From the NCBI GenBank assembly GCA_902778145.1, contig CACYWW010000020.1, positions 1-33,805 of the forward strand: DNA of 33,805 nt, written 5' to 3'. A program made the translations under genes and the position numbers. Shown here piece after piece: positions 3,316 through 22,122 of the stretch (its first letter is position 1; the number at the start of each line of letters is the position of its first letter). The notes below the pieces were generated by a model. That model was given only the letters and a program-made list of their open reading frames with translations. It did not search any database and was not told the DNA's origin. The DNA is from an uncultured Ruminococcus sp. Lineage in GTDB: Bacteria; Bacillota; Clostridia; Oscillospirales; CAG-272.

Positions 3316-3345
3316 TTGTTCGTACCTCTCTGAATGCATTCACCC

Positions 3346-3450: not shown

Positions 3451-5001
3451 TTAATTATTATGATCCCGGTCGTTTACTTCATAAGCAAATACGGCGATCG
3501 GTTTTTCGTCGTCCGGAACTGTCAGTTCGCCGGAATCGACGGCACATTTTCCGATAAAGCCGACCGTTCTGAAAAACAAGGTCAAACCGATTATCCTTTC
3601 AATGATACCTGCAACGCTCTTCGGTGCGTGCTGTTTCATAAGCTTCACTGCAATCGTATTCAGCTCATTGTACAGATACGCTGTTTTGTTTATCAAACCG
3701 CTCAGTATCGCTGTGACCTGTGTAAGTTCACGGTCTTTGAAGACCGGATAATCGTCATATCCGAAGCTCAAAGAATCCCTGACGGGTGCGCCATTAAAGC
3801 CGTAATGACAGCTTTTCGGCAAAACTCCGAAATCGGCAAAAGATACCGCATACTTTTCATCGATCCCGGCGTAACCTGCAAACCCGCAGCATTCATATTC
3901 TTTTATAATCAGGCTCTCTTTTTCAGTATCTGACCCGGTCTCGTCATAATCTGTTCCGTAATTGATCCCGGTTGCACCGGAATAGATCTCATCCGATCCG
4001 CTGTCCGGCATGCTGTTTCTGAACTCATTATCGCCTCTGCCCATGATATACCATAACAGCGGCCAAAGCAAGCGGTTGTCATCCAGAAAACAGCCTCTGA
4101 AGCCGATCTTGCGGATCTTTGGAAGATACGCTTTTATATCTTTGATGATTTCCCCGATATTTTGAACGCAAAAATTTTTTGCTTTTGAATAGAATTCCCA
4201 TGTATAATCGGTGGTGAATATGACAAGGTTTGTCTGATATTTGCCGCCCGGCAGTGCCGTGAGCAGCTTGTATTGTTCAAGCAGCGCGACTTCGTCCTCC
4301 ATATAGACGCTCGAAACGCCGAGTTCAAGCGACAGTTCGCGGATCGTCATGGGCGTGTAATATGCGCTGTGAAGGATGTTTCCGGGCAACTTGCGATTAA
4401 ATAGATTTCTGTATTCGCGGTTGAATTGTCCGGAAAATATAGTTACAAATTCAAATTTTGCTGGGTTATAGCTTTTTTCACCAAACTGTCTTTCCATACC
4501 GATACCTTCTTTCAATAATTGCCGTGTTTTGAACAGGTGATACTTTACCATTTCAAGGCTGATGTTTTGTTCTTCCGCTATTTCTTTGCAGGACTTGTTT
4601 TGGAAATAAAAGGCAAGGCAAACCTCACGGTGAGTTTTGGAAAGCAAAGACAGTTCACGCCGCAGCAGGTTAAGGCTTTCGTTTTTGCTCTCGCTATCGA
4701 TCAACTCTTCCTCCGGCGACGCTACAGCGTCAATAAACGTATCGTCGTCGGGCAACGGCGAAAGCGAATGCCGGAGTTCCTTTTGCTTTATGAATTTGCG
4801 GAACGTATTTTCCGCAACTTTCCACAGAAACGCCCAGAACGCTTCGTCGTCTTTGATCCTGTTTGCCGATCTCAAAACCTCGTACACGATCTCCTGGGTC
4901 AGTTCGTCCACATCGTCTTTGTCATAAAGGCGCGCGAAGGAGTAACCGTAAATGTTTTTCAGGTTATCTGATATCAGCTTTGCCGCTTTTTGGTTTTCCA
5001 T
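3451..5001 (-). CDS. ECF-like sigma-70 factor with winged-helix and long C-terminal extension (paralogue)
   Basis: 516 residues with the same layout as the gene at 1663-3315. Region 2 is about 5-75 (VDELTQEI), region 4 about 110-165 (LSKTHREVCLAFYFQNKSCKEIAEEQNIS … MVKYHLFKTRQLLKEG), and the winged-helix segment about 213-262 (MTIRELSLELGVSSVYME … LLEQYKLL). The C-terminal part, about 255 residues, is soluble and unrecognised. It shares with the paralogue a tryptophan-rich helix (LLWPLLWYIMG versus IMWSLIPYITA) and an ending with the pattern G.LT.P. The ATG at 5001 has AAGGAA just upstream. Standalone ECF factors are usually under 250 residues, so more than half of this protein is extension. 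No anti-sigma factor gene is adjacent, so the C-terminal part may regulate the sigma domain in cis. Confidence 0.85.
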   Translation of the reverse strand: MENQKAAKLISDNLKNIYGYSFARLYDKDDVDELTQEIVYEVLRSANRIKDDEAFWAFLWKVAENTFRKFIKQKELRHSLSPLPDDDTFIDAVASPEEELIDSESKNESLNLLRRELSLLSKTHREVCLAFYFQNKSCKEIAEEQNISLEMVKYHLFKTRQLLKEGIGMERQFGEKSYNPAKFEFVTIFSGQFNREYRNLFNRKLPGNILHSAYYTPMTIRELSLELGVSSVYMEDEVALLEQYKLLTALPGGKYQTNLVIFTTDYTWEFYSKAKNFCVQNIGEIIKDIKAYLPKIRKIGFRGCFLDDNRLLWPLLWYIMGRGDNEFRNSMPDSGSDEIYSGATGINYGTDYDETGSDTEKESLIIKEYECCGFAGYAGIDEKYAVSFADFGVLPKSCHYGFNGAPVRDSLSFGYDDYPVFKDRELTQVTAILSGLINKTAYLYNELNTIAVKLMKQHAPKSVAGIIERIIGLTLFFRTVGFIGKCAVDSGELTVPDDEKPIAVFAYEVNDRDHNN

Positions 5002-5120: not shown

Positions 5121-5975
5121 TCAAAGCTTCATCGCGCGGGCGAAGAGGCGACCGAGCTTTATCACGCAGTCGGAATCGTAGTGATACGTGTCGGGCGCGC
5201 CGAACGGCTCGTGTTCAGTCGTCAGCCCTTCGGCTATCGTGTCGATATAAACGCGGTTTTCCGCCTGCTCCGCAAAAGCACGCTTATCTGCGTTTATACG
5301 CTCGTAAAAGGGCCATACCGCGCTGATGCCGGCGTCGATATACACGCATTCGTCAAAATACCCGGGGAATGCGGCGGATAGATCCCGAAGCATGGCGCCG
5401 TAGGTCTTTATATACGTTTCCGTGAACTGCTCGGAGCACGCGTCGTTTTCGCCCTGCATCCAGCAGAAGGCGCGGACTGACGGCTCGTATCCGTTGTCTT
5501 CAAGATAAGCTATGCTTTCGCGCAAAAGCTTTACAAGCTCGTTGTAGCACCAGCTCGGACGCGCGACGGCGCCTGATTCTATGCAGGCGACGATACCGGG
5601 GAGCTGATCCGCGTACGAGCCCGCGTCGTATTCCGCGCCGCCCGATGGAGACAGGAAATCCTTATGCATCGACATTCCGCCGAACGCGCATTTCACGATG
5701 AAGAATTCGCGCCCGGGATATTTTTCGGCAAGCTCCGCGGCGATCCCGAGCTCGGGACCGATCGTTTCCTTTTTTACCTCGGTGCACCCGGTCGACGTGT
5801 TGACGAAGCCGCCGCTTTTCTTGTCGTGAGAGAAATAATTGATCTTTATATCGGGGTATCCCGCCTTCCATTTCGCTATCGTCTCATTGTCGAAATGCGA
5901 CGGAAGGCAGCTTACGTGACCGACGCCGACGGCGTTGGACTGACCGGATAAAACGATGATATCGGCTTTTTTCAT
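5121..5975 (-). CDS. SGNH-type carbohydrate acetylesterase (sialate O-acetylesterase-like)
   Basis: 284 residues without a signal peptide. The N-terminus carries block I GQSNAVG with the nucleophile Ser13. The block WMQGENDA lies mid-protein, and the C-terminal DTYH (Asp262, His265) supplies the rest of the triad. This pattern fits the sialate O-acetylesterase / CE6-like family (PF03629), which removes O-acetyl groups from sugars. AAGGAG six bases before the ATG supports the start. It lies 11 bases downstream of the AraC regulator gene and is probably co-transcribed with it. A second member of the same broad family is found at 32708-33694. The natural substrate is not visible; an acetylated plant-derived oligosaccharide would suit the neighbouring operon. 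Confidence 0.85.
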   Translation of the reverse strand: MKKADIIVLSGQSNAVGVGHVSCLPSHFDNETIAKWKAGYPDIKINYFSHDKKSGGFVNTSTGCTEVKKETIGPELGIAAELAEKYPGREFFIVKCAFGGMSMHKDFLSPSGGAEYDAGSYADQLPGIVACIESGAVARPSWCYNELVKLLRESIAYLEDNGYEPSVRAFCWMQGENDACSEQFTETYIKTYGAMLRDLSAAFPGYFDECVYIDAGISAVWPFYERINADKRAFAEQAENRVYIDTIAEGLTTEHEPFGAPDTYHYDSDCVIKLGRLFARAMKL

Positions 5976-5986
5976 GATATTCTCCT

Positions 5987-6748
5987 TTATTTTTTGTCAC
6001 CTCTCGGCGAGATCCCGAGGGCTTTTTTATACTGACGGTAAAACGTTGAATAATTGTCTATTCCGCATAGCTCCGCGGCTTTCGTCGGCGGCGTGCCGTC
6101 GTTTATCAGCTTCTGCGCGTACAGCATCCGCTTGCGGTTCGCGTACTGAGCGATACCGACGCCCATCTTCGCCGAAAACATATGAGACAGCCACGACGGA
6201 CTCATGTAAAAATGCGAAGCGAGCGTGTCGACGGATAAAGGCTGTTCCGGGTGGCTGTCGATGTAATCGAGCACCTGACCGAGCCTTTCATCCGTTCTGA
6301 CGTCTCTGCTCACGTCACGCTTTTTAGCGTATCCGAGCGACGTTATAACGGCGCAAAGGCACGAACGTATGAACGAATAAAGCTGTTTTTCATCCATCAG
6401 CTCCTCGTAGCTTCCCCACGCGGCAAAGAACCCCGTGACGAACAGGTCGCCCGAAACGCTGCACGCGGAGGGAAGAGAGCCGAGCCCGTCCGAACAGTCT
6501 TCCGGAAGCTCGTCCTGAGTGAAGTTTATGACGTAGCGCTCGTATATGGCGTTTGATCTCGGCAGCAGGTTGTGATACGTTCGCGGCTTTATAACGAGAA
6601 CGTCGTGCTTTTTGAGCGAATATACCGAGCCTTCGATCATATAGTCCGCATCACCCTCGAGAAAATACAATATCTCGTATTCGTTGTGCATATGTGAGGG
6701 AAAATTGCTTATATCGACCTTGTCCGTGCGGATGTGAGAGTATTCCAT
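5987..6748 (-). CDS. AraC-family transcriptional regulator
   Basis: 253 residues. The N-terminal half is a cupin-like sugar-sensing domain (HMHNEYEILYFLEG, then IKPRTYH near residues 53-59). The last 100 residues are a double helix-turn-helix AraC domain: PLSVDTLASHFYMSPSWLSHMF, then the second helix pair ending GISPRG. The ATG at 6748 is chosen because GGAGG lies six bases upstream; an ATG ten codons earlier overlaps the promoter. The gene is transcribed away from the twelve-gene sugar operon across a region rich in TTGCAA palindromes. It is therefore the likely local regulator of both sides, probably activating the operon when an oligosaccharide or uronate is bound. The ligand is inferred only from context. 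Confidence 0.9.
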   Translation of the reverse strand: MEYSHIRTDKVDISNFPSHMHNEYEILYFLEGDADYMIEGSVYSLKKHDVLVIKPRTYHNLLPRSNAIYERYVINFTQDELPEDCSDGLGSLPSACSVSGDLFVTGFFAAWGSYEELMDEKQLYSFIRSCLCAVITSLGYAKKRDVSRDVRTDERLGQVLDYIDSHPEQPLSVDTLASHFYMSPSWLSHMFSAKMGVGIAQYANRKRMLYAQKLINDGTPPTKAAELCGIDNYSTFYRQYKKALGISPRGDKK

Positions 6749-6776
6749 CAAAGACCTCCGTTTACCTGTTACCGGC

Positions 6777-6805
6777 ATTATATCATATTACAACAGAAAT
6801 TGCAA
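6777..6805 (-). promoter_or_regulatory. sigma-A promoter of the AraC-esterase genes
   Basis: On the minus strand -35 TTGCAA (6800-6805), a 17-base spacer and -10 TATAAT (6777-6782). The -35 is itself one of the palindromic TTGCAA words, so binding there would compete with RNA polymerase. Confidence 0.75.
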
Positions 6806-6847
6806 TATAAATTTGCAAATATTGCAATTAACTTTCTATTATTGCAG
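6788..6847. promoter_or_regulatory. cluster of TTGCAA palindromes in the divergent promoter region
   Basis: TTGCAA occurs at 6800-6805, 6813-6818 (inside the 10-base palindrome ATTTGCAAAT) and 6822-6827. Related words are TTACAA at 6788-6793 and TTGCAG at 6842-6847. They fill the space between the AraC gene and the operon and are plausible operators for the AraC protein. A/T-rich promoter DNA can produce such words by chance, so binding is an inference. Confidence 0.45.
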
Positions 6848-6856
6848 TGATAAAAT
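6828..6856 (+). promoter_or_regulatory. promoter of the uronate/oligosaccharide operon
   Basis: TTAACT (6828-6833), a 17-base spacer and TAAAAT (6851-6856). The weak -35 fits a promoter that needs an activator. The start codon of the first gene lies 22 bases after the -10 box. Confidence 0.55.
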
Positions 6857-6878
6857 AGTAAAAAAGGGAGGTGTTTTT

Positions 6879-7649
6879 ATGATACACGGCGTTTGCTGCG
6901 GTATGGCGGGAATAGCCGCCGCGGCGGAAGCGGGGCTTTCATACGTCGAACCGGCGCTCGTTCAGGTGCGCGGATACAGCGACGCGCAGCTTGACGAAAT
7001 GCGTGAAACGGCGCTTGCCGCGGGCGTTGCGGTCGCGGGCTTCAACTGCTTTTTCGGCGGCGAGATAATGCTGTATGAAACCGGCTCCGGCGTGATCCTT
7101 GAATATGCGAAACGTAATTTCGAGGTCGTGAAAAGGCTCGGAGGACGGTACTGCGTCATCGGCAGCGGAAGAAGCCGTTCGGTCCCCGACGGAGGGGACA
7201 GGTCGGCCGCGGAGGATTCCTTCTGCGAAACCGTTTCCGCGATAGGACGGCTCGCGGCTGAATACGGCGTCGATCTTTATCTTGAACCGCTTCAGCGTGC
7301 CGAGACGAACTTCATGAATACGCTGACGGACGGAGTCCGGATCTGCCGCAGGATCGGCATGGACAACGTAGGCGTTCTGCTCGATCTGTATCATTTTTAT
7401 CAGAACGGAGAGGAGCTGTCCGAGCTTGACTGTCTCATGCCGGGCGAGCTGCGCCACGTTCATATTGCGAGACCGAACGCCGACCGCGGATACCTGCGCG
7501 AATCCGACAAAGAAACGCTTTCCGCGTGGGCTGAAAAACTGAAAAGCACGGGCTACGACGGCAGGATATCACTTGAATGCACCTGGGGCGGGGATTTCGC
7601 CGCAGAGGTGAAGACCGCCGCCCGTATGCTTGAATTATTTGAAAAATGA
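6879..7649 (+). CDS. sugar isomerase/epimerase-like TIM barrel (AP endonuclease 2 superfamily), first of three
   Basis: 256 residues, a full xylose-isomerase-like TIM barrel (PF01261). The four metal ligands expected for this superfamily are present: Glu136 (LEPLQ), Asp169 (LLDLYH), His195 (HVHIARPN) and Glu233 (LECTW). The layout resembles hydroxypyruvate isomerases and ketose 3-epimerases. The start at 6879 is set by GGGAGGTG just upstream. It is the first gene of the operon and overlaps the next reading frame. The precise substrate is unknown. It could epimerise a ketose released by the pathway, or catalyse isomerisation or elimination on an oxidised sugar made by the two Gfo/Idh/MocA proteins. 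Confidence 0.85.
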   Translation: MIHGVCCGMAGIAAAAEAGLSYVEPALVQVRGYSDAQLDEMRETALAAGVAVAGFNCFFGGEIMLYETGSGVILEYAKRNFEVVKRLGGRYCVIGSGRSRSVPDGGDRSAAEDSFCETVSAIGRLAAEYGVDLYLEPLQRAETNFMNTLTDGVRICRRIGMDNVGVLLDLYHFYQNGEELSELDCLMPGELRHVHIARPNADRGYLRESDKETLSAWAEKLKSTGYDGRISLECTWGGDFAAEVKTAARMLELFEK

Positions 7650-7657
7650 GGTATGGT

Positions 7658-8824
7658 ATGAAGGAGATAGATGAAAACACTCTGAAGGTCACGGAATACG
7701 AGCTTCTTGACAAGCTCCCCGATCCGTTTGTTTTTGACAGCGGCGAGCGGATGACCTCGCCCGATCAGTGGGAAAAAAGAAGAGAAGAGATTTACAAATA
7801 CGCGATAGATCTGCAGTACGGCACGCTGCCGCCCGCGCCGGAGTATTTTGAGGTCGAGCCGCTGCTCGACTGGTCGCCCGTGTGCAAGGGCTACAAGATC
7901 CACGCGGGGACGAAGGAAAAACAGGTATCGTTCCGTATGCAGGTAATCCTTCCCGAAAAACGCGACGGAAAAGTCCCGGTCATCGTCGACGGCGATATGT
8001 GCTGGATGTACCACATGGACCGCGAATTCCTCAACGCCGCGCTTGACCGCAGCGTCGGCTGGGTGATGTTCGACCGTACCGAGCTCGCGCATGACAACGG
8101 CGGCGACGGCAGAGGCAACGGTGCGCTTTATGGAGTTTACCCGGAGTACACGTTCGGTGCGCTCGGTGCGTGGGCGTGGGGATATTCGAGATGCGTCGAC
8201 GCACTCGAAAAGCTCGATCTGCCGATAGATCTTGATTTCATAGCGTTCAGCGGACATTCCCGCGGCGGAAAGACGGCGGCTCTCGCGGGCGCGGTCGACC
8301 GCCGCGCGAGAATAGTCAACCCGAACGAGACGTGCGCCGGAGCCTGCGGCTGCTACCGCGTCCATATGAAGGGCGTGCAGGAGCCCGGCGGTATAAACGA
8401 ATCGAGAAGCGAGACGCTTGACGATCTGATGCGCAACTTCGCCTTCTGGATGGGCGACGGTATGGAGGCATACCGCAAATGCGAGGAAAAGCTTCCGTTT
8501 GACACGCATTTCCTCAAAGCCATGGTCGCCCCGAGGACGCTTTTCGTATCCGAGGCGGCGGGCGACATCTGGGCGAACCCGGTCGGCTCATATCAGACGA
8601 CCGTCGCGGCGAAGGAGGTATTCGATTATCTCGGCGCCGGCGATAAGCTGTTCTGGTATTACAGACCGGGCGTACACGGACACAGAGTCGAGGACGTTTA
8701 TATGCTCGTAAACGTTATAAGACACGAAAAATACGGCGATCCGATAGATGAGCGTATGTTCAGACGCCCGTTTAAGGATCCCGGAAAGGCATACGACTGG
8801 ACGGCGCCGGGGAGGGAAAAATGA
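7658..8824 (+). CDS. alpha/beta hydrolase resembling glucuronoyl methylesterase (CE15-like)
   Basis: 388 residues from the ATG at 7658, which has GAGG six bases before it. An in-frame ATG at 7646 overlaps the previous stop. The nucleophile elbow GHSRGGKTAALAG (Ser201), the following region NPNETCAGACGCYR, and the late histidines in PGVHGHRVED (His340, His342) match the CE15 glucuronoyl esterase / related acetylxylan esterase fold. Known CE15 enzymes cut the ester between 4-O-methyl-glucuronate and lignin alcohols. Those enzymes are usually secreted, whereas this protein has no signal peptide, so it more likely hydrolyses a methyl or other ester on an imported glucuronate-bearing oligosaccharide. 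That function fits the uronate pathway encoded downstream. The stop overlaps the next start. Confidence 0.75.
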   Translation: MKEIDENTLKVTEYELLDKLPDPFVFDSGERMTSPDQWEKRREEIYKYAIDLQYGTLPPAPEYFEVEPLLDWSPVCKGYKIHAGTKEKQVSFRMQVILPEKRDGKVPVIVDGDMCWMYHMDREFLNAALDRSVGWVMFDRTELAHDNGGDGRGNGALYGVYPEYTFGALGAWAWGYSRCVDALEKLDLPIDLDFIAFSGHSRGGKTAALAGAVDRRARIVNPNETCAGACGCYRVHMKGVQEPGGINESRSETLDDLMRNFAFWMGDGMEAYRKCEEKLPFDTHFLKAMVAPRTLFVSEAAGDIWANPVGSYQTTVAAKEVFDYLGAGDKLFWYYRPGVHGHRVEDVYMLVNVIRHEKYGDPIDERMFRRPFKDPGKAYDWTAPGREK

Positions 8825-9681
8825 TAAGGCTGTGCGCATTTGCGGATGAGGCGTCCCCGTCCCTTTCGGGACAGATCGCGGCGCTGAAGAGAAACGGGAT
8901 AGATCTGATCGAGCTGCGCGGCGTCGACGGAAAGAACGTCGCGGCGCTCAACGACGGCGAAGCCGTGAGAATAAAAAACGAGCTTGACGCGGCGGGAATA
9001 AGAGTGTGGTCGCTCGGCTCGCCGTACGGAAAGGTCAGCCTCGGTAAAGGATTTGACGAAGAGGCGCTTTTCGCTCAGCTTCACAGACTTTGCAGAACGG
9101 CGAATATATTCGGCTGCGATAAGATCCGCGTGTTCAGCTTTTACGACGCGTACGGCAAGGCTGATGAGGTCGAAAGGCTTCTTACGGGATCCGTCGCCGC
9201 TGCGTCGGAATACGGTGTCCGCTTATACCATGAAAATGAAAAAGATATTTACGGCGACGTGCCGGAGCGCGTGCTTGAGCTTCGCCGCCGCGTGGCGGGG
9301 CTCTGCTTCGTATACGACCCGGCGAACTACATACAGTGCGGCGTAAGCCCGGATGAGTCGATACCGGCGCTTGCCGCGTCGTCCGGATATTTTCACATCA
9401 AGGACGTTATCGCGGAAACGGGCGAGCTTGTGCCCGCGGGCGACGGCGACGGCGATATAGCCCGGATACTCGACGGGATCAATGCAGACATTACGCTTAC
9501 GGTCGAACCGCATCTTTCCGTGTTCGCGGGGTATTCCGATATAGATCGGCACGAGATGAAAAACAAATACACGTTCAAAAGTCAGGGAGAGGCGTTCGAC
9601 ACGGCTGTCGGCGCGCTAAAGAGGCTTTTGTATAAACAGGGATACAGGATCGGAGGTAAAAACGAATGGAAGCGGGCATAA
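8821..9681 (+). CDS. sugar isomerase/epimerase-like TIM barrel, second of three
   Basis: 286 residues, AP-endonuclease-2 type TIM barrel. The metal quartet is intact: Glu138 (YHENE), Asp166 (YDPANY), His192 (FHIKD) and Glu229 (VEPHL). The ATG overlaps the previous stop as ATGA and follows a GGGAGGG ribosome binding site. The barrel is followed by a C-terminal helix and a lysine/arginine-rich end that overlaps the next gene by 16 bases. It is clearly different in sequence from the first and third barrel proteins, so the three are not recent duplicates. Activity is unassigned: isomerase, epimerase, or a lyase/dehydratase acting on a keto-sugar are all known in this superfamily. Confidence 0.85.
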   Translation: MIRLCAFADEASPSLSGQIAALKRNGIDLIELRGVDGKNVAALNDGEAVRIKNELDAAGIRVWSLGSPYGKVSLGKGFDEEALFAQLHRLCRTANIFGCDKIRVFSFYDAYGKADEVERLLTGSVAAASEYGVRLYHENEKDIYGDVPERVLELRRRVAGLCFVYDPANYIQCGVSPDESIPALAASSGYFHIKDVIAETGELVPAGDGDGDIARILDGINADITLTVEPHLSVFAGYSDIDRHEMKNKYTFKSQGEAFDTAVGALKRLLYKQGYRIGGKNEWKRA

Positions 9682-10442
9682 ATCTGTACTCGCTGAGAAC
9701 TCTCATCGGCGATGAGGACGGATTTTTAAAAACGGCGCTTGCGCTGGCGGATATGGGTTATACGAGCATTCAGTACTCGGGCGCCCCGTACGACCCGGAG
9801 AGGATAGCGAGGGTAAGCAAAAAAGCGGGGCTGCCTGTCGTTCTGACGCACGTACCGATGGACAGGATACTGAACGATACGGACGCTCTGATGTCCGAGC
9901 ATGAAAGCTTCGGCTGCCGCATTATAGGGCTCGGCGCGATGCCGCCGCAGACCGTAGCTGACCCGGACGCTTTCAGATCTACGGTCGACGCGCTCGACCG
10001 CGCGGGCGCCGTGATGAAGCGGAACGGCTTTGAGTTTTCTTATCATCACCACCATTTTGAAATGTACCGCACGGGAACGATGACGGCGCTCAGGTACATA
10101 GCGGAAAACGCTCCGAACATAAACGTGACGGTCGACACTTACTGGCTCCAGTACGGCGGCGCTGACGTCATAAAGACGATAGACAGCCTCGCCGGAAGGA
10201 TAAAATGCATACATCTGAAGGATTACCGCGTGAACGCGGTCAGAGCCGAAAACGGCGCGGTATCGTATACTCCGGGTTTTGCTCCGGTAGGCGACGGCGT
10301 GCTTGATTTCAAGGCGATAACGGAGCACGCAAAGGCGGCGGGGACCGTCCATTTCCTCGTCGAACAGGATGACGCGGTGAATTATCCCGATCCGCTCGGT
10401 CAGGTCGAACGCAGCATAAATTACATAAAGGAGAATTTGTAA
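9666..10442 (+). CDS. sugar isomerase/epimerase-like TIM barrel, third of three
   Basis: 258 residues. A histidine-rich strand YHHHHFEM carries Glu132, followed by Asp157 (TVDTYW), His183 (IHLKD) and Glu233 (LVEQDD), the same metal quartet as the other two barrels. Similar proteins are commonly annotated as sugar phosphate isomerase/epimerase and often sit beside Gfo/Idh/MocA oxidoreductases, as here. GGAGG eight bases before the ATG supports the start, which lies inside the end of the preceding gene. Only one base separates its stop from the next start. It is probably cytoplasmic and metal-dependent; the reaction is not defined. Confidence 0.87.
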   Translation: MEAGINLYSLRTLIGDEDGFLKTALALADMGYTSIQYSGAPYDPERIARVSKKAGLPVVLTHVPMDRILNDTDALMSEHESFGCRIIGLGAMPPQTVADPDAFRSTVDALDRAGAVMKRNGFEFSYHHHHFEMYRTGTMTALRYIAENAPNINVTVDTYWLQYGGADVIKTIDSLAGRIKCIHLKDYRVNAVRAENGAVSYTPGFAPVGDGVLDFKAITEHAKAAGTVHFLVEQDDAVNYPDPLGQVERSINYIKENL

Positions 10443-10443
10443 A

Positions 10444-11628
10444 ATGGAAAAGGTAAGATTCGGTATCATAGGTCTGGGCAATCAGGGAAGCATGTACGCC
10501 GTGCATCTGTTCGGCGCCGGCAAGATCGAAAACGGCGTCGTTACCGCCATGTGCGACATAAATCCCGCAAAAATAGAGGCGATAAAGAATCGCCCCGGCT
10601 TTGAGGACAAGGCGTATTTTGAAAACTATATCGAGATGCTCGATTCAGGACTTATCGACGCCGCTCTGATCGAGGTCCCGCACTATCTGCATCCCGAGAT
10701 GGTCATAGCGTGTCTTGAGCGCGGCATAAACGTCATCTGCGAAAAGCCGGCGGGCGTTTACACGAAGCACGTCCGCGAGATGAACGAGGCGGCGGAAAAG
10801 TCCGGCGCACGGTTCGCCATGATGTTCAACCAGCGCACGAACTGCCTCTACAGAAAGATGCGTGAGATAATCGCGGACGGCGGTATCGGCGAGCTTCAGA
10901 GAGTCACGTGGATCATCACCGACTGGTACAGGACTCAGAAATATTACGACAGCGGCTCGTGGCGTGCAACGTGGGACGGCGAAGGCGGCGGCGTGCTCAT
11001 AAACCAGTGCCCGCACCAGCTCGACCTCGTTCAGTGGGTCGTAGGCAAGCTCCCGGTCGCCGTGCGCGGCTTCTGCGAATACGGCAAGTGGCATGATATT
11101 GAGGTCGAGGACGAGGTCACCGCTTTCTTCAAATACGATAACGGCGCGACGGGAGTATTCATAACGACGACCGGCGAGACTCCCGGGACGAACAGATTTG
11201 AAGTGTCCGGCACCGGCGGCAAGCTCGTGTGCGAAAACGGCGCACTGAAGTGGTATAAGAACAAGATGGACAGCCAGGTGTTCTCAAAGACCTGCGAGCA
11301 GGGCTTCAGCGTACCCGGCGCCGAGCCGATCACCGTCGAGACGGACGGCAAAAATCCCCAGCACGAAGGCATTATAAACAACTTTGCGAACGCCATACTC
11401 GGTCTTGAGCCGCAGTTCGTAGACGGGCGCGAGGGGATCAGAGGCGTCGAGCTCATGAACGCGATCGAGCTTTCCGGCTGGAAGAACGGCGAGGAGATAT
11501 CGCTCCCCGTGAACGAAGAAGAATACCTCGGATACCTCAATGCTCACAGAAAGATATCGAGATACAAAAAAGCTGACGACAACGCCGTAGCGGATACGAC
11601 AGGCACGTTCGAGAGCAAGAAGATATGA
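10444..11628 (+). CDS. Gfo/Idh/MocA-family NAD(P)-dependent sugar oxidoreductase (first)
   Basis: 394 residues. The N-terminal Rossmann fold has GLGNQG (residues 10-15) and the family motif EKP with catalytic-type Lys101. The C-terminal domain carries GGGVLINQ followed by His191 and Asp194 in the pattern H..D. These enzymes oxidise or reduce one hydroxyl of a sugar, glycoside or inositol using NAD(P). The C-terminus has about 25 extra polar residues. AAGGAG before the ATG supports the start, and the stop overlaps the second oxidoreductase. Two different family members in tandem could interconvert a hydroxyl and a ketone before and after a TIM-barrel reaction. The substrate is unknown. Confidence 0.9.
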   Translation: MEKVRFGIIGLGNQGSMYAVHLFGAGKIENGVVTAMCDINPAKIEAIKNRPGFEDKAYFENYIEMLDSGLIDAALIEVPHYLHPEMVIACLERGINVICEKPAGVYTKHVREMNEAAEKSGARFAMMFNQRTNCLYRKMREIIADGGIGELQRVTWIITDWYRTQKYYDSGSWRATWDGEGGGVLINQCPHQLDLVQWVVGKLPVAVRGFCEYGKWHDIEVEDEVTAFFKYDNGATGVFITTTGETPGTNRFEVSGTGGKLVCENGALKWYKNKMDSQVFSKTCEQGFSVPGAEPITVETDGKNPQHEGIINNFANAILGLEPQFVDGREGIRGVELMNAIELSGWKNGEEISLPVNEEEYLGYLNAHRKISRYKKADDNAVADTTGTFESKKI

Positions 11629-12584
11629 GAGCCGCGGTCATAGGCGTCGGAAACATAGGGACGCTCCACGCGAAAATATTATCGGACTCCGGTCTTCTTT
11701 GCGGCGTCTGCGATATCGACGAAAAAAGACTGTCCGCATATAAGGATCTGCCGTGTTATACGGATTATAAGGCGATGATAGACGAGCTCAGACCGGACGC
11801 CGTCCATATCTGCACGCCTCATTATCTTCACGCGGAAATGGTCGTATACGCGCTTGACCGCGGTGTGAACGTTCTCTGCGAAAAGCCGCTTTGCATATCG
11901 TATGAACAGCTCGATCTCGTGCTCGAAACGGAAAAACGCTCGTCAGCACGTCTCGGCGTATGCCTTCAGAACAGATACAACAGGGAAAACGTCTTCGCAA
12001 AGAAGTATCTTTCCGGAAAAAATATCGTTTCCGCGTCAGCTCAGGTGGCCTGGCACAGAACGGCTGAGTATTACGCCACGGGAGAGTGGCGCGGCAAAAA
12101 GGCGACGGAGGGCGGAGGAGTGCTCATAAATCAGGCGCTCCACACACTCGACCTACTGCAGTATCTCTGCGGCATGCCGGAGAAGATAGCGGCGTCGGTT
12201 TCGGATCTGACGCTGAAGGAATGTATCGAGGTGGAGGATACGGCGGTCATCGTATCGCGCGCGGGCGCGCCTGTCACGTTCTTTGCGACGAACGGCGCGG
12301 CGGCGGATATGCCGGTCGAGATCACCGTCGTCACGGACCGTGACACAGTCAAGATAATGCCCGGCGCGGTTTACGTGAACGGCGTGCCTCAGGATATAGG
12401 CGAGGAGCGGTACAAACCGCTCGGAAAGGCGTGCTACGGCTCCGGTCACGGTGCACTTATAGCTGATTATTACGGCAGGCTTGAGAGCGGAGAACCGTTC
12501 CCGATCAACGGAGAGGCGGGCTCGGGATCCGTCAGACTCATCCTTGCCGCGTATAAGAGCGGAGGGGAGACGGTGAACGTATGA
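11625..12584 (+). CDS. Gfo/Idh/MocA-family NAD(P)-dependent sugar oxidoreductase (second)
   Basis: 319 residues, shorter than the preceding paralogue. Rossmann motif GVGNIG near residue 7, EKP with Lys87, and His173/Asp176 in ALHTLD after GGGVLINQ. All family catalytic residues are present. The ATG overlaps the previous stop as ATGA, and the stop overlaps the next start in the same way, so translation is probably coupled. No strong Shine-Dalgarno is seen at this junction. The pair with the preceding gene suggests successive oxidation and reduction steps on the same or related sugars. Confidence 0.9.
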   Translation: MRAAVIGVGNIGTLHAKILSDSGLLCGVCDIDEKRLSAYKDLPCYTDYKAMIDELRPDAVHICTPHYLHAEMVVYALDRGVNVLCEKPLCISYEQLDLVLETEKRSSARLGVCLQNRYNRENVFAKKYLSGKNIVSASAQVAWHRTAEYYATGEWRGKKATEGGGVLINQALHTLDLLQYLCGMPEKIAASVSDLTLKECIEVEDTAVIVSRAGAPVTFFATNGAAADMPVEITVVTDRDTVKIMPGAVYVNGVPQDIGEERYKPLGKACYGSGHGALIADYYGRLESGEPFPINGEAGSGSVRLILAAYKSGGETVNV

Positions 12585-14572
12585 AATGGATCACTGACGG
12601 CGCGTTCCGCGGGCTTGCCCCGCTGAACGTGTTCCATCGCGAGCGTGAGCCCGGCGTCGGAAACGATACGGAGCGGCAGAACAGCCACATCCTTTTCCGC
12701 AAGCATATAACGCTCGACGGGCTTCCCGAAAAGGCGGAGATGACCGTCACCGCCGACGATTTTTACAGACTTTTCATAAACGGGACTTTTGTAAACGAAG
12801 GGCCTGCGCCGTCGTATCATGACGAATACGGTTACGACGTTCTGGACGTCACGCGGTACCTCGTTCCGGGGGAAAACGTCATCGCCGTACATACGTATTA
12901 TCAGGGACTCATAAACCGCGTGTGGCAGAGCGGCGACAGAAGGCACGGGCTTTGCCTGCGCCTCGTCTGCGACGGAAAGACCGTCGCCGAATCGGACGAA
13001 AGCTTTCTTTGCCGCCGCCACAGCGGTTTTACCGCCACCGGCAAAGCGGGATATGACACTCAGTTTTTGCAGAGATACGACAGCCGCGCGGCGGAGGTCG
13101 GGTTCGAGAGACCGGACTATGACGACTCGGAGTGGGAGCACGCGCTCGTGAACCCTTCCGACGATCACACGCTTATAAAGAAAAGAGAGCGGATGCTCGC
13201 GTTCGAGCACATAACCCCGGAGCGGATCACCTACCGTGAAAACACCGTGACGGTCGATCTCGGCGGCGTTTACGTCGGTTATCTGACGGTCAGCGCGAAG
13301 GGCGGGCCCGGAGAGGTCGTACACATAAGATGCGGTCAGGAGCTTGACGCGGACGGAAACGTCAGATACGCGCTCCGCGCCGGATGCGTGTACGACGAGG
13401 AATGGATCCTGTCGGGCGGAGACGATAAGCTGTATCAGCTCGATTACAAGTCCTTCAGATACGTAAGCATAACGCCCGAGGACGGCGCGAAGCTGACCGG
13501 GATCGGTCTTATTGCCCGCCACCGTCCGTTCACGCTCGCGTCTTCACTGAGAGCCGATTACGCGGACGACCCTGATATCAAAAAAGTATTCGACCTGTGC
13601 GTCCGATCTCAGAGATACGGCGTCCAGGAGCTGCCAATGGACTGCATGGAGCGCGAGAAGGGGACGTATCTCGGCGACGGGTGTTATACGTCGCTCTGCA
13701 ACTATATCCTCACCGGCTCCGATGCGGTGCTCAGGCGCTTTGTGAACGATGCGTTCTCAGGTGCGAAGATCACGCCCACGCTCGTTACGTGCCTGAACTG
13801 CTCGCTAATGCAGGAAATAGCGGAATACCCGCTCATCATGATACAGCTGCTTTTGTGGCATTACAGGATCTCAAAGGATATCGGATTTTTGCGTATCAAC
13901 CGCGACAGAGCGCTCACTCTTATAAAGGCGTACGGAAAATACGAGAATGACGGCATACTCGGTGACACGGGTCAGTGGTGCGTCACCGAATGGCCGGCGA
14001 ACTATCGCGACGGTTACGCCGTGAACAACGACGGCAACAAACCGCTTCCCGAGCCTCACGTCGTGATCAACGCATATTATATAAATGCGATAAGAGCGGT
14101 GAACGAGATGTGCCGCCTGACGGGAGAGCCGGAATACCGGGACGAAAAGCCGCTGCTGCGCGCTTTTGTCAACGCGTTTTATGACAGGGAAAAGCACGTC
14201 TTCAGGGACGGACTTACGAACGGTCATGTCAGCTTCATCGGAAACGTGTTCCCGTTCGGATTCGGACTTTGCGACGATCCGGAATTCACGAAAACGGTGC
14301 TCCGTATGTTCGCGGAAAAAGGAGTGACCGGGACCTCGCTCTTCGCGACGTTCCCGCTTCTGACCGGCTTTGTCCGCGCGGGAAGATATGACCTGATAAA
14401 AGAAGCGCTGAAGGACAAAAACGCGTGGCTTCGCATGATAGAAGAAGGCGCAACGGCGACGTTTGAGTGCTGGAGCAAGGACGGAAAATGGAACACATCG
14501 CTGTTCCATCTTCAGAATACGCACGCCGCGGTGTTCATGGCGGATACGGATCTGTCCGTGCTGCCTGTCTGA
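12581..14572 (+). CDS. GH78-like alpha-L-rhamnosidase-related glycoside hydrolase, intracellular
   Basis: 663 residues without signal peptide. An N-terminal jelly-roll (residues about 30-200) is followed by a second beta-domain (VDLGGVYVGYLTV …) and an alpha/alpha-barrel catalytic domain. The active-site motif is MDCMEREKGTYLGDG, with Glu359 and Lys360 where typical rhamnosidases have the Asp-Glu pair of CPQRDER. The late GATATFECWSKDGKWNTS segment corresponds to the GATTVWE region of GH78. The changed motif means that rhamnose specificity should not be assumed. Position between oxidoreductases and uronate isomerase suggests it releases a uronic acid or rhamnose from an oligosaccharide. Coupled by ATGA to the preceding gene. 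Confidence 0.8.
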   Translation: MKWITDGAFRGLAPLNVFHREREPGVGNDTERQNSHILFRKHITLDGLPEKAEMTVTADDFYRLFINGTFVNEGPAPSYHDEYGYDVLDVTRYLVPGENVIAVHTYYQGLINRVWQSGDRRHGLCLRLVCDGKTVAESDESFLCRRHSGFTATGKAGYDTQFLQRYDSRAAEVGFERPDYDDSEWEHALVNPSDDHTLIKKRERMLAFEHITPERITYRENTVTVDLGGVYVGYLTVSAKGGPGEVVHIRCGQELDADGNVRYALRAGCVYDEEWILSGGDDKLYQLDYKSFRYVSITPEDGAKLTGIGLIARHRPFTLASSLRADYADDPDIKKVFDLCVRSQRYGVQELPMDCMEREKGTYLGDGCYTSLCNYILTGSDAVLRRFVNDAFSGAKITPTLVTCLNCSLMQEIAEYPLIMIQLLLWHYRISKDIGFLRINRDRALTLIKAYGKYENDGILGDTGQWCVTEWPANYRDGYAVNNDGNKPLPEPHVVINAYYINAIRAVNEMCRLTGEPEYRDEKPLLRAFVNAFYDREKHVFRDGLTNGHVSFIGNVFPFGFGLCDDPEFTKTVLRMFAEKGVTGTSLFATFPLLTGFVRAGRYDLIKEALKDKNAWLRMIEEGATATFECWSKDGKWNTSLFHLQNTHAAVFMADTDLSVLPV

Positions 14573-14590
14573 GGCGGGAAGGGTGAACAA

Positions 14591-15949
14591 ATGGGATTTT
14601 TTGACGATAACGTACTTTTGAGATCGGAGACGGCGAGACGTTTATACCACGCCTCCGCCGATCATCCGATCATAGATTATCACTGCCATCTCGATCCGGG
14701 AGCGATCGCCCGTGACGATCCGATAACGGATATCGGTGAGCTGTGGCTTGCGCACGACCACTATAAATGGCGCGCGATGAGGCTTTGCGGCGTCGACGAG
14801 TATTATATAACCGGCGGCGCCTCATACGCCGAAAAGTTCATGAAATACGCGGAGATAATGCCTATGCTCGCGGGCGGACCGCTGTATTATTTCACGCATT
14901 TCGAGCTGAAGCAGATCTTCGGCGTGACAGAACCGCTCGGCCCGGAAAACGCCGCCCGTCTGTACGAGGAATGCAACGGGAAGCTTTCCGGGATGAGAGT
15001 CTCGGATCTTTTGAAAAAATACAGGGTCAGGGTAGTCGCGACGACTGATGATCCGGCGGATGATCTGAGATACCACGGAAAGTATGGAGATACCGCCGTA
15101 GTCCCCACGTTCAGACCGGACAAATACTACTGCCCGGACGACGCGGCGCTCGAAAGGCTCGGTAAAGCCGCCGGGATTCGGATAGTCACTCTCCGGGATC
15201 TGCTTGACGCACTGACTGACAGGCTCGCGTACTTCATTTCGAAGGGCTGCTTTATGTCCGATCACGGATTTGAGAAATTCCCGCCGACCGGCGCGTCATA
15301 TGAGGAGGCGGCGGAGCTTTTTCTGCGCCGCGGCGCCTTGTCGGACGGCGAAAAACAGACGCTTTTCGGATATGTCCTGACATATCTTTTGAGACAGTAT
15401 AAAAAGCGCGGCATAACGGCGCAGCTGCACTTTTCTGTCCGCCGCAACGTGAACGCGGGAATGTTCGCCGTTACCGGCGCGGACTCCGGATTTGACGTGA
15501 TAGGCGATCCTCAGACACCGTCTGACGTTGAACGTTTCCTCGCCTCGTTCGCTGACGCGGAGCGCCCGGACATCGTCCTCTATACGCTGAACGATACGGC
15601 TCTCCGCGCTCTGGCGAGCATATCCGGGGCTTTTTCCAACGTCAGGATCGGCGCCGCGTGGTGGTTCAACGATACGAAGCTCGGCATAAGACGCATGCTC
15701 GAAACGGCGTCCGAATACGCCGTGCTCGGAACGAGTCTCGGCATGCTCACGGATTCGCGCAGCTTCGCCGGGTATTCGCGCTTCGATTTCTTCCGCCGCA
15801 TCCTTTGTGATTATATAGCGGAGCTCGTGGACGGAGGAGAATATCCGGAGGATGCCGCGGCGAAGCTGATATACGACATAAACATCGGAAACGCGTATAA
15901 AGCGGCGTGCGGCAACCCGTACACCGCGTCGCTCATCGGAGGTATATGA
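14591..15949 (+). CDS. uxaC: uronate (glucuronate) isomerase
   Basis: 452 residues, close to the usual 465. The metal-binding HxH motif is at His31/His33 (YHCHLDP). TTDDPADDL and the late DSRSFAGYSRFDFFRRIL blocks are characteristic of UxaC in the amidohydrolase superfamily. It converts D-glucuronate to D-fructuronate (and galacturonate to tagaturonate) in the cytoplasm. Eighteen bases separate it from the GH78-like gene, with a GGAAGGGTGA binding site. Because mannonate dehydratase rather than altronate dehydratase follows, the pathway in this operon is the glucuronate branch. Confidence 0.95.
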   Translation: MGFFDDNVLLRSETARRLYHASADHPIIDYHCHLDPGAIARDDPITDIGELWLAHDHYKWRAMRLCGVDEYYITGGASYAEKFMKYAEIMPMLAGGPLYYFTHFELKQIFGVTEPLGPENAARLYEECNGKLSGMRVSDLLKKYRVRVVATTDDPADDLRYHGKYGDTAVVPTFRPDKYYCPDDAALERLGKAAGIRIVTLRDLLDALTDRLAYFISKGCFMSDHGFEKFPPTGASYEEAAELFLRRGALSDGEKQTLFGYVLTYLLRQYKKRGITAQLHFSVRRNVNAGMFAVTGADSGFDVIGDPQTPSDVERFLASFADAERPDIVLYTLNDTALRALASISGAFSNVRIGAAWWFNDTKLGIRRMLETASEYAVLGTSLGMLTDSRSFAGYSRFDFFRRILCDYIAELVDGGEYPEDAAAKLIYDINIGNAYKAACGNPYTASLIGGI

Positions 15950-15950
15950 T

Positions 15951-16988
15951 ATGAAAATGACGTTCAGATGGTACGGAGAGTCCGATCCGATACCGCTCCG
16001 CTACATCAGACAGATCCCGGGTATGACCGGCGTCGTCACCGCGGTATACGATACCCCGGTCGGCACCGTCTGGCAGCCGGAGGCGATCAAGAGGCTCAAG
16101 GATCTGTGCACGGAAAACGGACTTGAGATGGAGGTCATCGAATCTGTCCCGGTCCATGAAGACATCAAGCTCGGAGCCCCCGGACGCGACGAACTGATAA
16201 AAAACTACGCACAGACCGTGAGAAACCTCGGAGAAGCCGGCGTAAAGTGTATCTGCTATAACTTCATGCCTGTCTTTGACTGGCTGAGGACTGACCTGAA
16301 GACGGAGGCGCCGGACGGAAGCACGTCGCTGTCATACAGACACGACAGGCTCTCGGCGATGGATCCGGACGATCTTCATCTGCCCGGATGGGATGAAAGC
16401 TACAAGCCCGAACAGCTCAGAGCGCTGCTCGGCGCTTACAGAAATGTGACTCACGAAAAGCTTTTCGATAATCTCGTGTATTTCCTCCGCGGCATCATGC
16501 CCGCGTGCGTCGAGTACGGCGTCAATATGGCGATACACCCGGACGATCCGCCGTGGGACATGTTCGGTCTGCCGAGGATCATCACCTGCGCCGAAAGCTA
16601 TGAAAAGCTGTTTGCGGCGGTACCGGAGATAAACAACGGCGTCACGTTCTGCACGGGTTCTCTCGGCGCGGGACGCGGCAACGATCTCGTCGCGATGGCG
16701 GAAAAATACGCAAAACGTATACATTTTGCCCATCTGAGACAGATAAGATATTCGGGCGAGCTCGATTTCACGGAATCGGGTCACATGACAGCCTGCGGCG
16801 ATATCGACATTTACGGGATAGTCCGCGCGCTCGTGCTCGGAGGATTCGACGGATATGTGAGACCGGATCACGGACGGAACATCTGGGGAGAGGACGGCAA
16901 GCCCGGCTACGGCCTGTATGACCGCGCGCTCGGAGCCGCGTATCTTTCGGGACTGTTCGAGGCGGTCGAAAAGGAGGAGAAAAAATGA
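15951..16988 (+). CDS. uxuA: D-mannonate dehydratase
   Basis: 345 residues. The start MKMTFRWYGESDP and the blocks IRQIPGMTGVVTA, AIHPDDPPWDMFGLPRI and GAGRGNDLV are diagnostic of UxuA. This TIM-barrel enzyme dehydrates D-mannonate to 2-keto-3-deoxy-D-gluconate and needs a divalent metal. The ATG lies one base after the uxaC stop with GGAGG about eight bases before it. The end overlaps the next gene by four bases. The protein is near the short end of the family (about 345-395 residues) but appears complete. Confidence 0.95.
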   Translation: MKMTFRWYGESDPIPLRYIRQIPGMTGVVTAVYDTPVGTVWQPEAIKRLKDLCTENGLEMEVIESVPVHEDIKLGAPGRDELIKNYAQTVRNLGEAGVKCICYNFMPVFDWLRTDLKTEAPDGSTSLSYRHDRLSAMDPDDLHLPGWDESYKPEQLRALLGAYRNVTHEKLFDNLVYFLRGIMPACVEYGVNMAIHPDDPPWDMFGLPRIITCAESYEKLFAAVPEINNGVTFCTGSLGAGRGNDLVAMAEKYAKRIHFAHLRQIRYSGELDFTESGHMTACGDIDIYGIVRALVLGGFDGYVRPDHGRNIWGEDGKPGYGLYDRALGAAYLSGLFEAVEKEEKK

Positions 16989-17815
16989 AATTGCCTTTTG
17001 AAATAGATCTTAATGGAAAGGTCGCAGTCATAACAGGCGCGGGCGGCGTTATCTGCAGTGAGCTCGCGGCGGCGCTCGCGTCGTGCGGCTGCAGGGTCGC
17101 TCTGCTCGACATAAACGAGGAAGCGGCGAAAAAAGCCGCCGAACGCGCCGGCGGAGAGTGCATCGCGGTAAAATGCGACTGTCTTGATAAGGAAAGCCTT
17201 GAGGCGGCGAAGAAAACCGTCGCCGAAAAGCTCGGAAGGACGGATATACTGATAAACGGCGCCGGCGGCAATAATCCCCGCGCGACGACGGACAACGAGT
17301 ATATGACGCCGGAACTGACGTCGGGAAAGGATTTCTTCTCGCTCGATGCGTCAGGTCTGAGGTTCGTATTCGACCTCAATATCACGTCCGCTTTTCTTAC
17401 GACGCAGGTGTTCGCCGCGGACATGGTGGAGCACGGCGGCAATATCATCAACATCTCAAGCATGAACGCGTACAGGCCGCTTACGAAAATACCGGCTTAC
17501 AGCGCGGCAAAGGCGGGCGTATCGAATTTCACACAGTGGCTCGCCGTTCATTTCGCGCCGTGCGGCATCAGATGCAACGCAATAGCTCCCGGCTTCTTCG
17601 TGACGAACCAGAACAGGTCTCTTCTGTTCACGGATAAAGGCGAGCCTACGCCGCGTACCGGAAAGATCCTTGCGGCGACCCCGATGAAGCGCTTCGGCGA
17701 GGTGTCGGAGCTGATCGGCACGCTCCTGTGGCTCGTATGCGACGGGGCGAGCGGCTTCGTCACCGGTATAACCGTACCGGTGGACGGCGGCTTCTCGTCA
17801 TATTCGGGTGTCTGA
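16985..17815 (+). CDS. SDR-type D-mannonate oxidoreductase (fructuronate reductase)
   Basis: 276 residues, short-chain dehydrogenase fold. The nucleotide motif TGAGGVICS is the form seen in mannonate-oxidoreductase SDRs. The active-site residues are Ser158/Ser159 (NISSMN) and Tyr172-xxx-Lys176 (YSAAK). In context it reduces D-fructuronate to D-mannonate with NAD(P)H, linking uxaC to uxuA. It is unrelated in fold to the long-chain UxuB of E. coli, and SDR enzymes replace it in many Firmicutes and Thermotogae. ATGA overlap with uxuA. Confidence 0.88.
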   Translation: MKLPFEIDLNGKVAVITGAGGVICSELAAALASCGCRVALLDINEEAAKKAAERAGGECIAVKCDCLDKESLEAAKKTVAEKLGRTDILINGAGGNNPRATTDNEYMTPELTSGKDFFSLDASGLRFVFDLNITSAFLTTQVFAADMVEHGGNIINISSMNAYRPLTKIPAYSAAKAGVSNFTQWLAVHFAPCGIRCNAIAPGFFVTNQNRSLLFTDKGEPTPRTGKILAATPMKRFGEVSELIGTLLWLVCDGASGFVTGITVPVDGGFSSYSGV

Positions 17816-17816
17816 T

Positions 17817-19384: not shown

Positions 19385-19430
19385 CAAAGGGGCACCCGCG
19401 AAACGGCGGGCGTCCCTTTGTTGTTTATTT
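19385..19430 (+). terminator. terminator between convergent transcription units
   Basis: CAAAGGG … CCCGC (from 19385) pairs with GCGGG … CCCTTTG (to 19420) around a GAAACG loop, followed by TTGTTTATTT. It ends the twelve-gene operon. The GH78 gene arriving from the right stops at 19429, so the hairpin probably serves it as well. Confidence 0.85.
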
Positions 19431-21924: not shown

Positions 21925-21958
21925 TTGTTGTCTGTCCTCCATCAGGAATATCATCCAT

Positions 21959-21987
21959 ATTATATCATAAACGTGTGATTTTGTCAA
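21959..21987 (-). promoter_or_regulatory. consensus sigma-A promoter of the GH78 gene
   Basis: Minus strand TTGACA (21982-21987), a 17-base spacer and TATAAT (21959-21964), matching the consensus at all twelve positions. Two TTTACAA words (plus strand 22010-22016 and 22021-22027) spaced 11 bases apart lie just upstream of the -35 and could be an operator. Confidence 0.9.
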
Positions 21988-22122
21988 TATAAAAGCGGAT
22001 GCGGCCGTATTTACAAAATGTTTACAATTGATCTGAAACCAAATGACCACTTTTTTATATCTTTATATATGCAGACACAAAACATTTTACAGCCAGTTAA
22101 ACACTTTGTGAAAATCAAGTGT

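Follow-up and report, generated by a model that had tools for sequence, protein, structure and literature searches.

A candidate intracellular operon for redox cleavage of glucuronides in an uncultured member of the Clostridia

The DNA analysed here (the window, 33,805 nucleotides) is the whole of contig CACYWW010000020.1 from the 2.42 Mb, 88% complete assembly GCA_902778145.1 of an uncultured Ruminococcus sp., and it carries a set of genes that may serve to cleave glucuronides by a redox route. Twelve plus-strand genes run from 6879 to 19372 and, because they are spaced by only −16 to +18 bases, look like a single operon, which extends beyond the segment 6879–12584 singled out by an earlier, sequence-only reading. 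That reading described three metal-binding TIM barrels and two Gfo/Idh/MocA oxidoreductases in this segment. Both descriptions were confirmed, the barrels by matches to PF01261, the xylose isomerase-like family (E-values of 4.4e-32 for B1, 2.2e-14 for B2 and 4.6e-16 for B3), and CE15-like (PF22244) and GH78-like (PF17389) genes were also recovered. The gene order is B1, CE15-like gene, B2, B3, the oxidoreductases G1 and G2, GH78-like gene, UxaC, UxuA, an SDR-type oxidoreductase, Eda and a PfkB-type kinase. Only two barrels (B2 and B3) lie between the esterase and GH78-like genes, for which all three had been claimed; B1 lies upstream of the esterase.

The closest solved relative of G1 (10444–11628) is 8TDI, labelled ‘P2B11 Glucuronide-3-dehydrogenase’, which matches residues 1–368 with an E-value of 2.6e-99 (the next-best match has 7.2e-34) and is 45% identical to G1 over 394 aligned columns. 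A tree of 171 sequences, built with FastTree only, places 8TDI on a long branch within the G1 group and sets G2 (11625–12584) apart as a clade of its own. The best solved match of G2 is also 8TDI, but a weaker one (E 3.3e-28). Both proteins keep the catalytic Lys and His/Asp residues ascribed to them previously: K101, H191 and D194 of G1 and K87, H173 and D176 of G2 are each invariant in 28/28 aligned sequences. They also have in common the motif YYxxxWR, which occurs in 28/28 G1 sequences and in 8TDI and is absent from the other 10 of the 12 PF01408 places of this genome, as judged from nearby open frames of >200 residues. Second among the solved relatives are 3q2i and 3q2k, which carry only the labels ‘dehydrogenase’ and ‘oxidoreductase’; we take them to be WlbA, a UDP-GlcNAc-uronate 3-dehydrogenase, in which case G1 and G2 would both be near uronate 3-dehydrogenases. 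With the levoglucosan dehydrogenase model, for which the cut-off is 650 bits, G1 scored 69.6. G1 therefore appears, by sequence, to be of the glucuronide-3-dehydrogenase type. G2 has the marks of a member of the Gfo/Idh/MocA family and would be the enzyme that reduces 3-keto-glucuronate to glucuronate.

The operon ends in glucuronate catabolism. UxaC (glucuronate isomerase, 14591–15949; NF002794, 435 bits, cut-off 387), UxuA (mannonate dehydratase, 15951–16988; NF003027, 477 bits, cut-off 191) and an SDR-type mannonate oxidoreductase with UxuB function (16985–17815; NF006132, 399.7 bits, cut-off 281) are followed by Eda, a KDPG/KHG aldolase (17808–18374; PF01081, E 4.1e-61), and a PfkB-type sugar kinase that is a KDG kinase by context (18371–19372; PF00294, E 1.2e-24). 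UxaC, UxuA, Eda and KdgK are held in common with the Ashwell hexuronate pathway, which is normally preceded by a glucuronidase; the mannonate step in the window belongs to the SDR-type enzyme. This ending and the grouping of G1 with 8TDI support the uronate substrate that had been suggested. The 45% identity does leave room for a change of substrate, and B1 resembles ketouronate epimerases (it matches the IolO model with an E-value of 3.3e-17, far under the cut-off), so that G1 might be merely a relative of 8TDI acting on another uronide or acidic sugar, such as a galacturonide, a sulfated sugar or 4-O-methyl-glucuronate. We consider this improbable, as the first three enzymes of the glucuronate route pass curated cut-offs, a CE15 esterase is present and the YYxxxWR residues of G1 recur in 8TDI.

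B3 (9666–10442) finds its best solved relative by single sequence in AtOGE (8bvk, E 3e-20), and its family profile ranks 8bvk first (4e-46), followed by 8tcs and 8tcd (8.7e-40 for 8tcd). A Foldseek search with its structural model (mean predicted local distance difference test score, pLDDT, of 97.9) returned AL1 (8tcd, E 2.0e-16) as the best match, then BT1 (8tct) and AtOGE (8bvk); the 3-keto-beta-glucopyranoside-1,2-lyases AL1 and BT1 occupy ranks 1–4, an uncharacterised protein rank 5 and AtOGE ranks 6–7. H127, H129, D157, H183 and E233 of B3 are invariant in 48/48 sequences. For AtOGE, PMC10628242 gives H132, D163, H189 and, weakly, E233 as metal ligands and H134 as the catalytic residue, and describes H134A as devoid of activity and H189A as having below 0.1%. 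With the register counted on the profile alignment, AtOGE H132, H134, D163, H189 and E233 align with B3 H127, H129, D157, H183 and E233, respectively. The E/D/H/E metal quartet, which had been assigned to all three barrels, is thus found in B1 (12/12) and B2 (48/48). In B3 the set is H127/D157/H183/E233, that is, H/D/H/E (48/48), as in AtOGE; its first metal residue, a histidine, departs from E/D/H/E and is therefore the one found in a known eliminase. Sequence, predicted fold and active-site histidines all point to B3 as a member of the 3-keto-glycoside-1,2-lyase (beta-eliminase) family.

The relationship of G1 to 8TDI and of B3 to three solved lyases lends support to the mechanism put forward by the sequence-only reading, in which a Gfo/Idh/MocA enzyme oxidises the sugar and an AP-endonuclease-2 barrel then cleaves the bond. 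The example given was puerarin degradation, in which a Gfo/Idh/MocA enzyme of the Dgp system makes a 3-keto intermediate and a barrel enzyme cleaves it, as proposed here. That the window encodes a C-glycoside system of this kind is very unlikely. Both G1 and G2 do have DgpA chains in their lists of solved matches, but DgpA matches G1 with an E-value of only ~2e-14 against 2.6e-99 for 8TDI, and a glucuronate route is attached to the module. Furthermore, no CGE or DgpB/C chain is named among the matches listed for B2 and B3 (sequence matches at E ≤ 0.01, profile matches and 50 fold matches). Given the weak DgpA match and the lack of a CGE-type chain among these matches, we rejected this system and, with it, a special link to C-glycoside cleavage. 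PMC10628242 presents CGE as a heterodimer with C-glycosides as its substrates. Orthology to inositol degradation, named earlier as an outcome that would speak against the mechanism, was checked as well. B3 matches TIGR04379 (IolE) and G1 and G2 match TIGR04380 (IolG), but so far under the cut-offs (56.2 of 290 bits for B3, 94.4 of 355 for G1 and 76.3 of 355 for G2), and with so much stronger non-inositol matches for G1 and B3, that a route for inositol or another cyclitol was rejected as hardly credible.

B2 (8821–9681) is the barrel without a close solved relative. By single sequence it has no PDB match at E ≤ 0.01, and NCBIfam holds no family for the window protein at E ≤ 0.1. Its profile matches AsbF (3dx5, 1.4e-12), Art22 (9.3e-11) and, in seventh place, the 2-hydroxy-3-keto-glucal hydratase AtHYD (8ro4, 0.001), and its structural model (pLDDT 94.2) is nearest in fold to AsbF, D-tagatose 3-epimerases and Art22. 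E138, N139, D166, H192, E229, K71, R103 and H231 are invariant in 48/48 sequences, with E138/D166/H192/E229 as the metal set, and position 140 is Glu in 45/48 and Asp in 3/48. In the alignment with AsbF, E138 is paired with a glutamate and E140 with the histidine two residues on, a spacing equal to that of H132 and H134 in AtOGE. The active site of B2 appears to be of neither the ketose-3-epimerase nor the lyase type. Since B3 already fits a lyase and B2 and B3 occur together, B2 may be a glycal hydratase; this is the weakest of our assignments.

The association of these genes was examined in 146 sampled genomes of the family, incomplete ones included, whose relatedness makes the counts non-independent and inflates the figures. 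At thresholds of E ≤ 1e-60 for G1, E ≤ 1e-50 for B2 and ≥251 bits for B3, G1 is found in 86 genomes, B2 in 88, B3 in 84 and UxuA in 73. All three core genes (G1, B2 and B3) are present in 79 genomes, 54 have none and 13 have a partial set, which answers the earlier call for a comparison of gene co-occurrence. G1 and B2 are both present in 83 genomes and both missing from 55 (phi coefficient 0.887, Fisher 2e-30); phi is 0.86 for G1 and B3 and 0.888 for B2 and B3, compared to 0.306 for G1 and UxuA. As a partial remedy for relatedness, we compared genomes within the 19 genera found to vary in G1 (52 genomes; genus labels cover 56 of the 60 G1-negative genomes): full agreement with G1 was seen in 14 genera for B2, 16 for B3 and 4 for UxuA. 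Of the 83 genomes that hold both, only 45 have a B2 start within 2.5 kb of G1, and the tie therefore holds also where the genes are apart. The starts of B2 and B3 are within 2.5 kb of each other in 56/82 genomes.

Gene neighbourhoods were compared in 120 loci (41 from family genomes and 79 from named contigs) that remained after the duplicate L157 was dropped and among which other near-copies may persist. The family loci comprise the window and 40 others of 106 G1 places, and the named contigs derive from the best 80 of at least 592 relatives. As loci were gathered by similarity to G1, all counts near G1 are conditional on G1; in addition, many contigs end within the region, and the profile labels were built from sequences of the same loci. 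At a distance of no more than six genes from G1 and on the same strand, B2 occurs in 70 loci, B3 in 62, either in 91 and both in 41; G2 occurs in 36, a UxuB-type SDR in 32, UxuA in 23, UxaC in 12, B1 in 11, the CE15 gene in 9 and the GH78-like gene in 5. B2 or B3 is near G1 in 25/41 family loci and 66/79 named-contig loci, and, with 91 of the 120 loci overall, this neighbourhood is more than chance. In 35 loci, a UxaC, UxuA or UxuB-type gene is found at most six genes from G1, and 31 of these loci also have B2 or B3. In five loci (L098, L135, L136, L140 and L150), B2 and G1 are joined in one reading frame of 673–690 residues.

B2 being the barrel that is fused to G1, the same pathway could divide its labour differently, with B2 as a second lyase (for alpha-glucuronides, or as the main uronate lyase) and B3 either eliminating and hydrating or taking the other anomer. 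A B. thetaiotaomicron lyase variant called ‘deficient in hydration activity’ in PMC13273386 implies a wild type that does both, LgdB2 looked bifunctional according to PMC7676230, and near G1 B2 stands without B3 in 29/120 loci and B3 without B2 in 21/120. We regard this division as rather unlikely, because 82/146 genomes hold both B2 and B3 and just 6 hold only B2 and 2 only B3, as expected of successive steps, and because B2 has no His at the base position (Glu in most sequences and otherwise Asp, in a register inferred from the AsbF alignment).

Combining these findings, we propose, with a probability of roughly 0.7, that the operon cleaves glucuronides inside the cell in four steps (oxidation, elimination, hydration and reduction) and supplies an Ashwell-type glucuronate pathway. 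If an imported small glucuronide carries an ester at C6, the CE15 esterase would release it, and a cap, rhamnosyl or other, may be taken off by the GH78-like enzyme. G1 would then oxidise C3 of the glucuronide using NAD+ to give a 3-keto-glucuronide. B3, with its metal on His/Asp/His/Glu and His129 as the base, would abstract H2 and expel the aglycone, leaving a 2-hydroxy-3-keto-glycal uronate to which B2 would add water to give 3-keto-glucuronate. G2, or G1 in reverse, would reduce this to glucuronate, and, since oxidation and reduction balance, NAD+ would be regenerated. UxaC, UxuA, the SDR enzyme, Eda and the kinase would carry glucuronate to central metabolism. The enzyme families called upon for oxidation by G1, elimination by B3 and the glucuronate route are supported by sequence, fold or residues; the substrate, the order of the steps, the intracellular location and the roles of B2, G2, B1 and the GH78-like protein are what we infer. 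The location is presumably intracellular because, judged by eye, no N-terminus of the operon proteins resembles a signal peptide.

Several observations weigh against this proposal. The operon has no transporter gene. The hydratase AtHYD is a remote match of B2, at the profile E-value given above, and is not among the 50 fold matches listed. G1 has no B2 or B3 nearby in 29/120 loci, including 16 of the 41 family loci; contig ends explain only some of these cases. G2 is near G1 in just the 36 loci counted above, and G2 or a second G1-like gene in 46/120; a glucuronate-catabolism gene is near G1 in only 35/120, and the genome-wide association of G1 with UxuA is modest. In G011, a genome of the window's own genus, G1 is only 52% identical and has different neighbours. 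The B3 threshold was picked after the table had been seen; the G1–B3 phi stays at 0.83–0.86 from 1e-76 to 1e-65 and falls to 0.68 at 1e-90 and to 0.52 at 1e-50, where B3 matches 115/146 genomes, a drop that we take to reflect paralogues entering the B3 count. Finally, GH2 has four matches in the genome, one of them strong, which makes a beta-glucuronidase possible.

A second G1-like gene lies beside G1, with G2 not seen, in L070, L071, L074, L109, L110, L118, L119 and L125, and may replace G2 as the reductase there. In L090, an MFS_2 sugar transporter (6683–8392) stands just upstream of a B2-B3-G1-UxuB-UxuA run and is a candidate uptake route.

Of the remaining enzymes of the operon, B1 (6879–7649) appears to be accessory to the module and has as its best PDB relatives a putative sugar isomerase, TM0416 and D-allulose/D-psicose epimerases. 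In the numbering from TTG 6813 (22 is to be subtracted for ATG 6879, which GGGAGG precedes), E158, E164, D191, H194, H217, R225 and E255 are invariant in 12/12 aligned sequences. E158/D191/H217/E255 form the metal set, and the second Glu, the His and the Arg of the ketose 3-epimerase site are likewise conserved (12/12); we assume that E/D/H/E and these three residues define that family. Of the curated epimerase models, NF041099 scores best, at 62.7 of 300 bits and below its cut-off, and the 5-keto-L-gluconate epimerase model matches weakly. B1 thus looks like a ketose 3-epimerase rather than a lyase and probably epimerises a ketouronate. The three barrels, which had been treated as alike, therefore differ (an epimerase site in B1, a lyase site in B3 and neither in B2), and we rejected their equivalence.

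The CE15 protein (7646–8824; PF22244, E 1.5e-44) matches 21 solved sequences at E ≤ 0.001, most of them named glucuronoyl esterase or CE15, with 7nn3 as the best (1.7e-37). S205 and H344, presumably the catalytic pair of CE15, are invariant in 9/9 loci. Plant-cell-wall CE15 enzymes typically carry a secretion signal; none was visible by eye at the N-termini from the nine loci, and the enzyme is presumably cytoplasmic. More distant CE15-like genes occur within other versions of the operon in L074, L075 and L095. The GH78-like glycosidase (12581–14572; PF17389, E 2e-19; RhaB 2okx, E 7.4e-14), which also lacks a signal peptide visible by eye, keeps D354, E359, D366 and E629 in 4/4 full-length copies, residues that match those we take to be the acidic residues of GH78. 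Our guess is that it may strip rhamnose from Rha-GlcA units, for example those in arabinogalactan proteins or saponins.

The chemistry proposed here has precedents, and the view of the strategy as uncharacterised is not supported, a glucuronide-3-dehydrogenase having already been solved. A 2024 Nature study of a gut ‘alternative broad-specificity pathway’, which PMC13273386 cites, is reportedly the source of the 8TDI, AL1 and BT1 structures. G1 is homologous to the P2B11 glucuronide-3-dehydrogenase over most of its length and B3 to the AL1 (8TCD, 8TCR) and BT1 (8TCT) lyases; here one operon also holds the whole glucuronate route, the CE15 esterase, the GH78-like gene, B1 and B2, which would be a difference from P2B11 if that clone lacks such neighbours. 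The A. tumefaciens AtOGE/AtHYD operon (PMC10628242) likewise combines two oxidoreductases with two AP-endonuclease-2-type barrels, for which a four-step logic was proposed. The AtOGE active site is present in B3, but the A. tumefaciens system acts on glucosides with the flavin enzyme GlycDH as its first step, and B2 is at best remotely related to AtHYD. In the levoglucosan system, for which oxidation, elimination, hydration and reduction by LgdA-LgdB1-LgdB2-LgdC are established, two enzymes annotated as sugar phosphate isomerases are encoded with two oxidoreductases, of which LgdC is a Gfo/Idh/MocA protein (PMC7676230). The window has the same layout of two oxidoreductases and two barrels, whereas the anhydro-glucose substrate and glucose product of the levoglucosan enzymes set them apart from it. 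We recognised no open-licence paper describing oxidation of glucuronides at C3 by such a module, and found in such papers no description of an operon with the whole glucuronate route, of an esterase without a signal peptide or of the B2 family. The system thus reads as a uronate-specific variant of already known four-step chemistry, and the mechanism of the sequence-only reading was largely right, although its metal residues, its view of B1 and its estimate of novelty needed correcting.

Conjugation to glucuronate is how mammals mark drugs, hormones and phenols from the diet, and glucuronate is also a frequent component of saponins and of the walls of plant cells. Hydrolytic glucuronidases are generally given the credit for removing it in the gut. 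This genome gave no match to GH67, GH115 or GH88, in a search that did not include GH79 or GH154. GH67 is found in 4/146 genomes (3 over the cut-off) and GH115 in 5/146, and both are missing from 74 of the 79 genomes that carry the complete core set. The family is, however, poor in GH67 and GH115 with or without the module, and this alone does not show replacement by the module. A bolder idea is that B2 founds an undescribed group of uronate-specific 2-hydroxy-3-keto-glycal hydratases and that G1, B3 and B2, not glucuronidases, cleave most glucuronides, including esterified ones taken up whole, in over half of this gut Clostridia family; we put it forward tentatively and with more doubt than confidence. 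Should the redox route be as common as the core genes in 79 of the 146 genomes of one family suggest, gene surveys confined to glucuronidases, and glucuronidase inhibitors, would miss it. As a self-contained gene set, the operon could be used to reconstitute the pathway and to assign B2.

Two other genomes of the genus (L039 and L040) have the entire gene set, B1 through the kinase, in the same order. The closest named loci belong to the uncultured ‘Ruminococcus sp.’ metagenome-assembled genomes RUG12800 (L079) and RUG12975 (L080), whose gene order agrees with that of the window as far as the GH78-like gene, starting at B1; beyond it, L079 does not continue with the Ux genes, and L080 ends. 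RUG presumably denotes rumen genomes, other records of G1 relatives are named from sheep, goat and yak gut, and the host probably belongs to the uncultured Clostridia of the gut or rumen.

No family was common among the unlabelled G1 neighbours of the 90 non-window loci that have B2 or B3 close to G1, as judged from the 25 of 148 families listed: an ABC ATPase occurred 5 times, two-component proteins 2 to 4 times and the rest at most twice. The 137 neighbours concerned were chosen for their strand, spacing, distance and length. Of these, 7 exceeded the size limit, the other 130 were scanned, and ten were inspected singly, one of them from L086. Four further same-strand pairs of AP_endonuc_2 and Gfo/Idh/MocA genes lie in the window's own genome (C40 2589–4590, C73 372–1546, C12 15463–16611 and C9 29066–30997) and are possible further oxidative glycoside modules.

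Upstream of the operon and divergent from it lies a gene for an AraC-type regulator with a cupin sensor domain (5987–6778, minus strand; Pfam HTH_18 and AraC_binding). Promoter-like sites are present between it and B1; the 11 such sites in the region are not clearly above the shuffled expectation of 7.6 ± 3.0 and were not used, nor were the 25 terminator-like sites (14.9 ± 3.7 expected) taken as evidence. Where the window has this regulator, L045, L082, L083, L085, L088, L089, L092 and L093 carry a divergent gene of ~246 residues (cluster c17). Further upstream on the minus strand, two neighbouring proteins (1663–3339 and 3451–5001) have N-terminal sigma-70 region 2 and region 4 and, in addition, ~350–390 residues in which Pfam gave no match at E ≤ 0.001. 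A SASA-type carbohydrate acetylesterase (5121–5975, minus) adjoins the AraC regulator and perhaps acts on the same substrate. Convergent on the operon end, a second GH78 protein (19429–22050, minus) has all GH78 Pfam domains.

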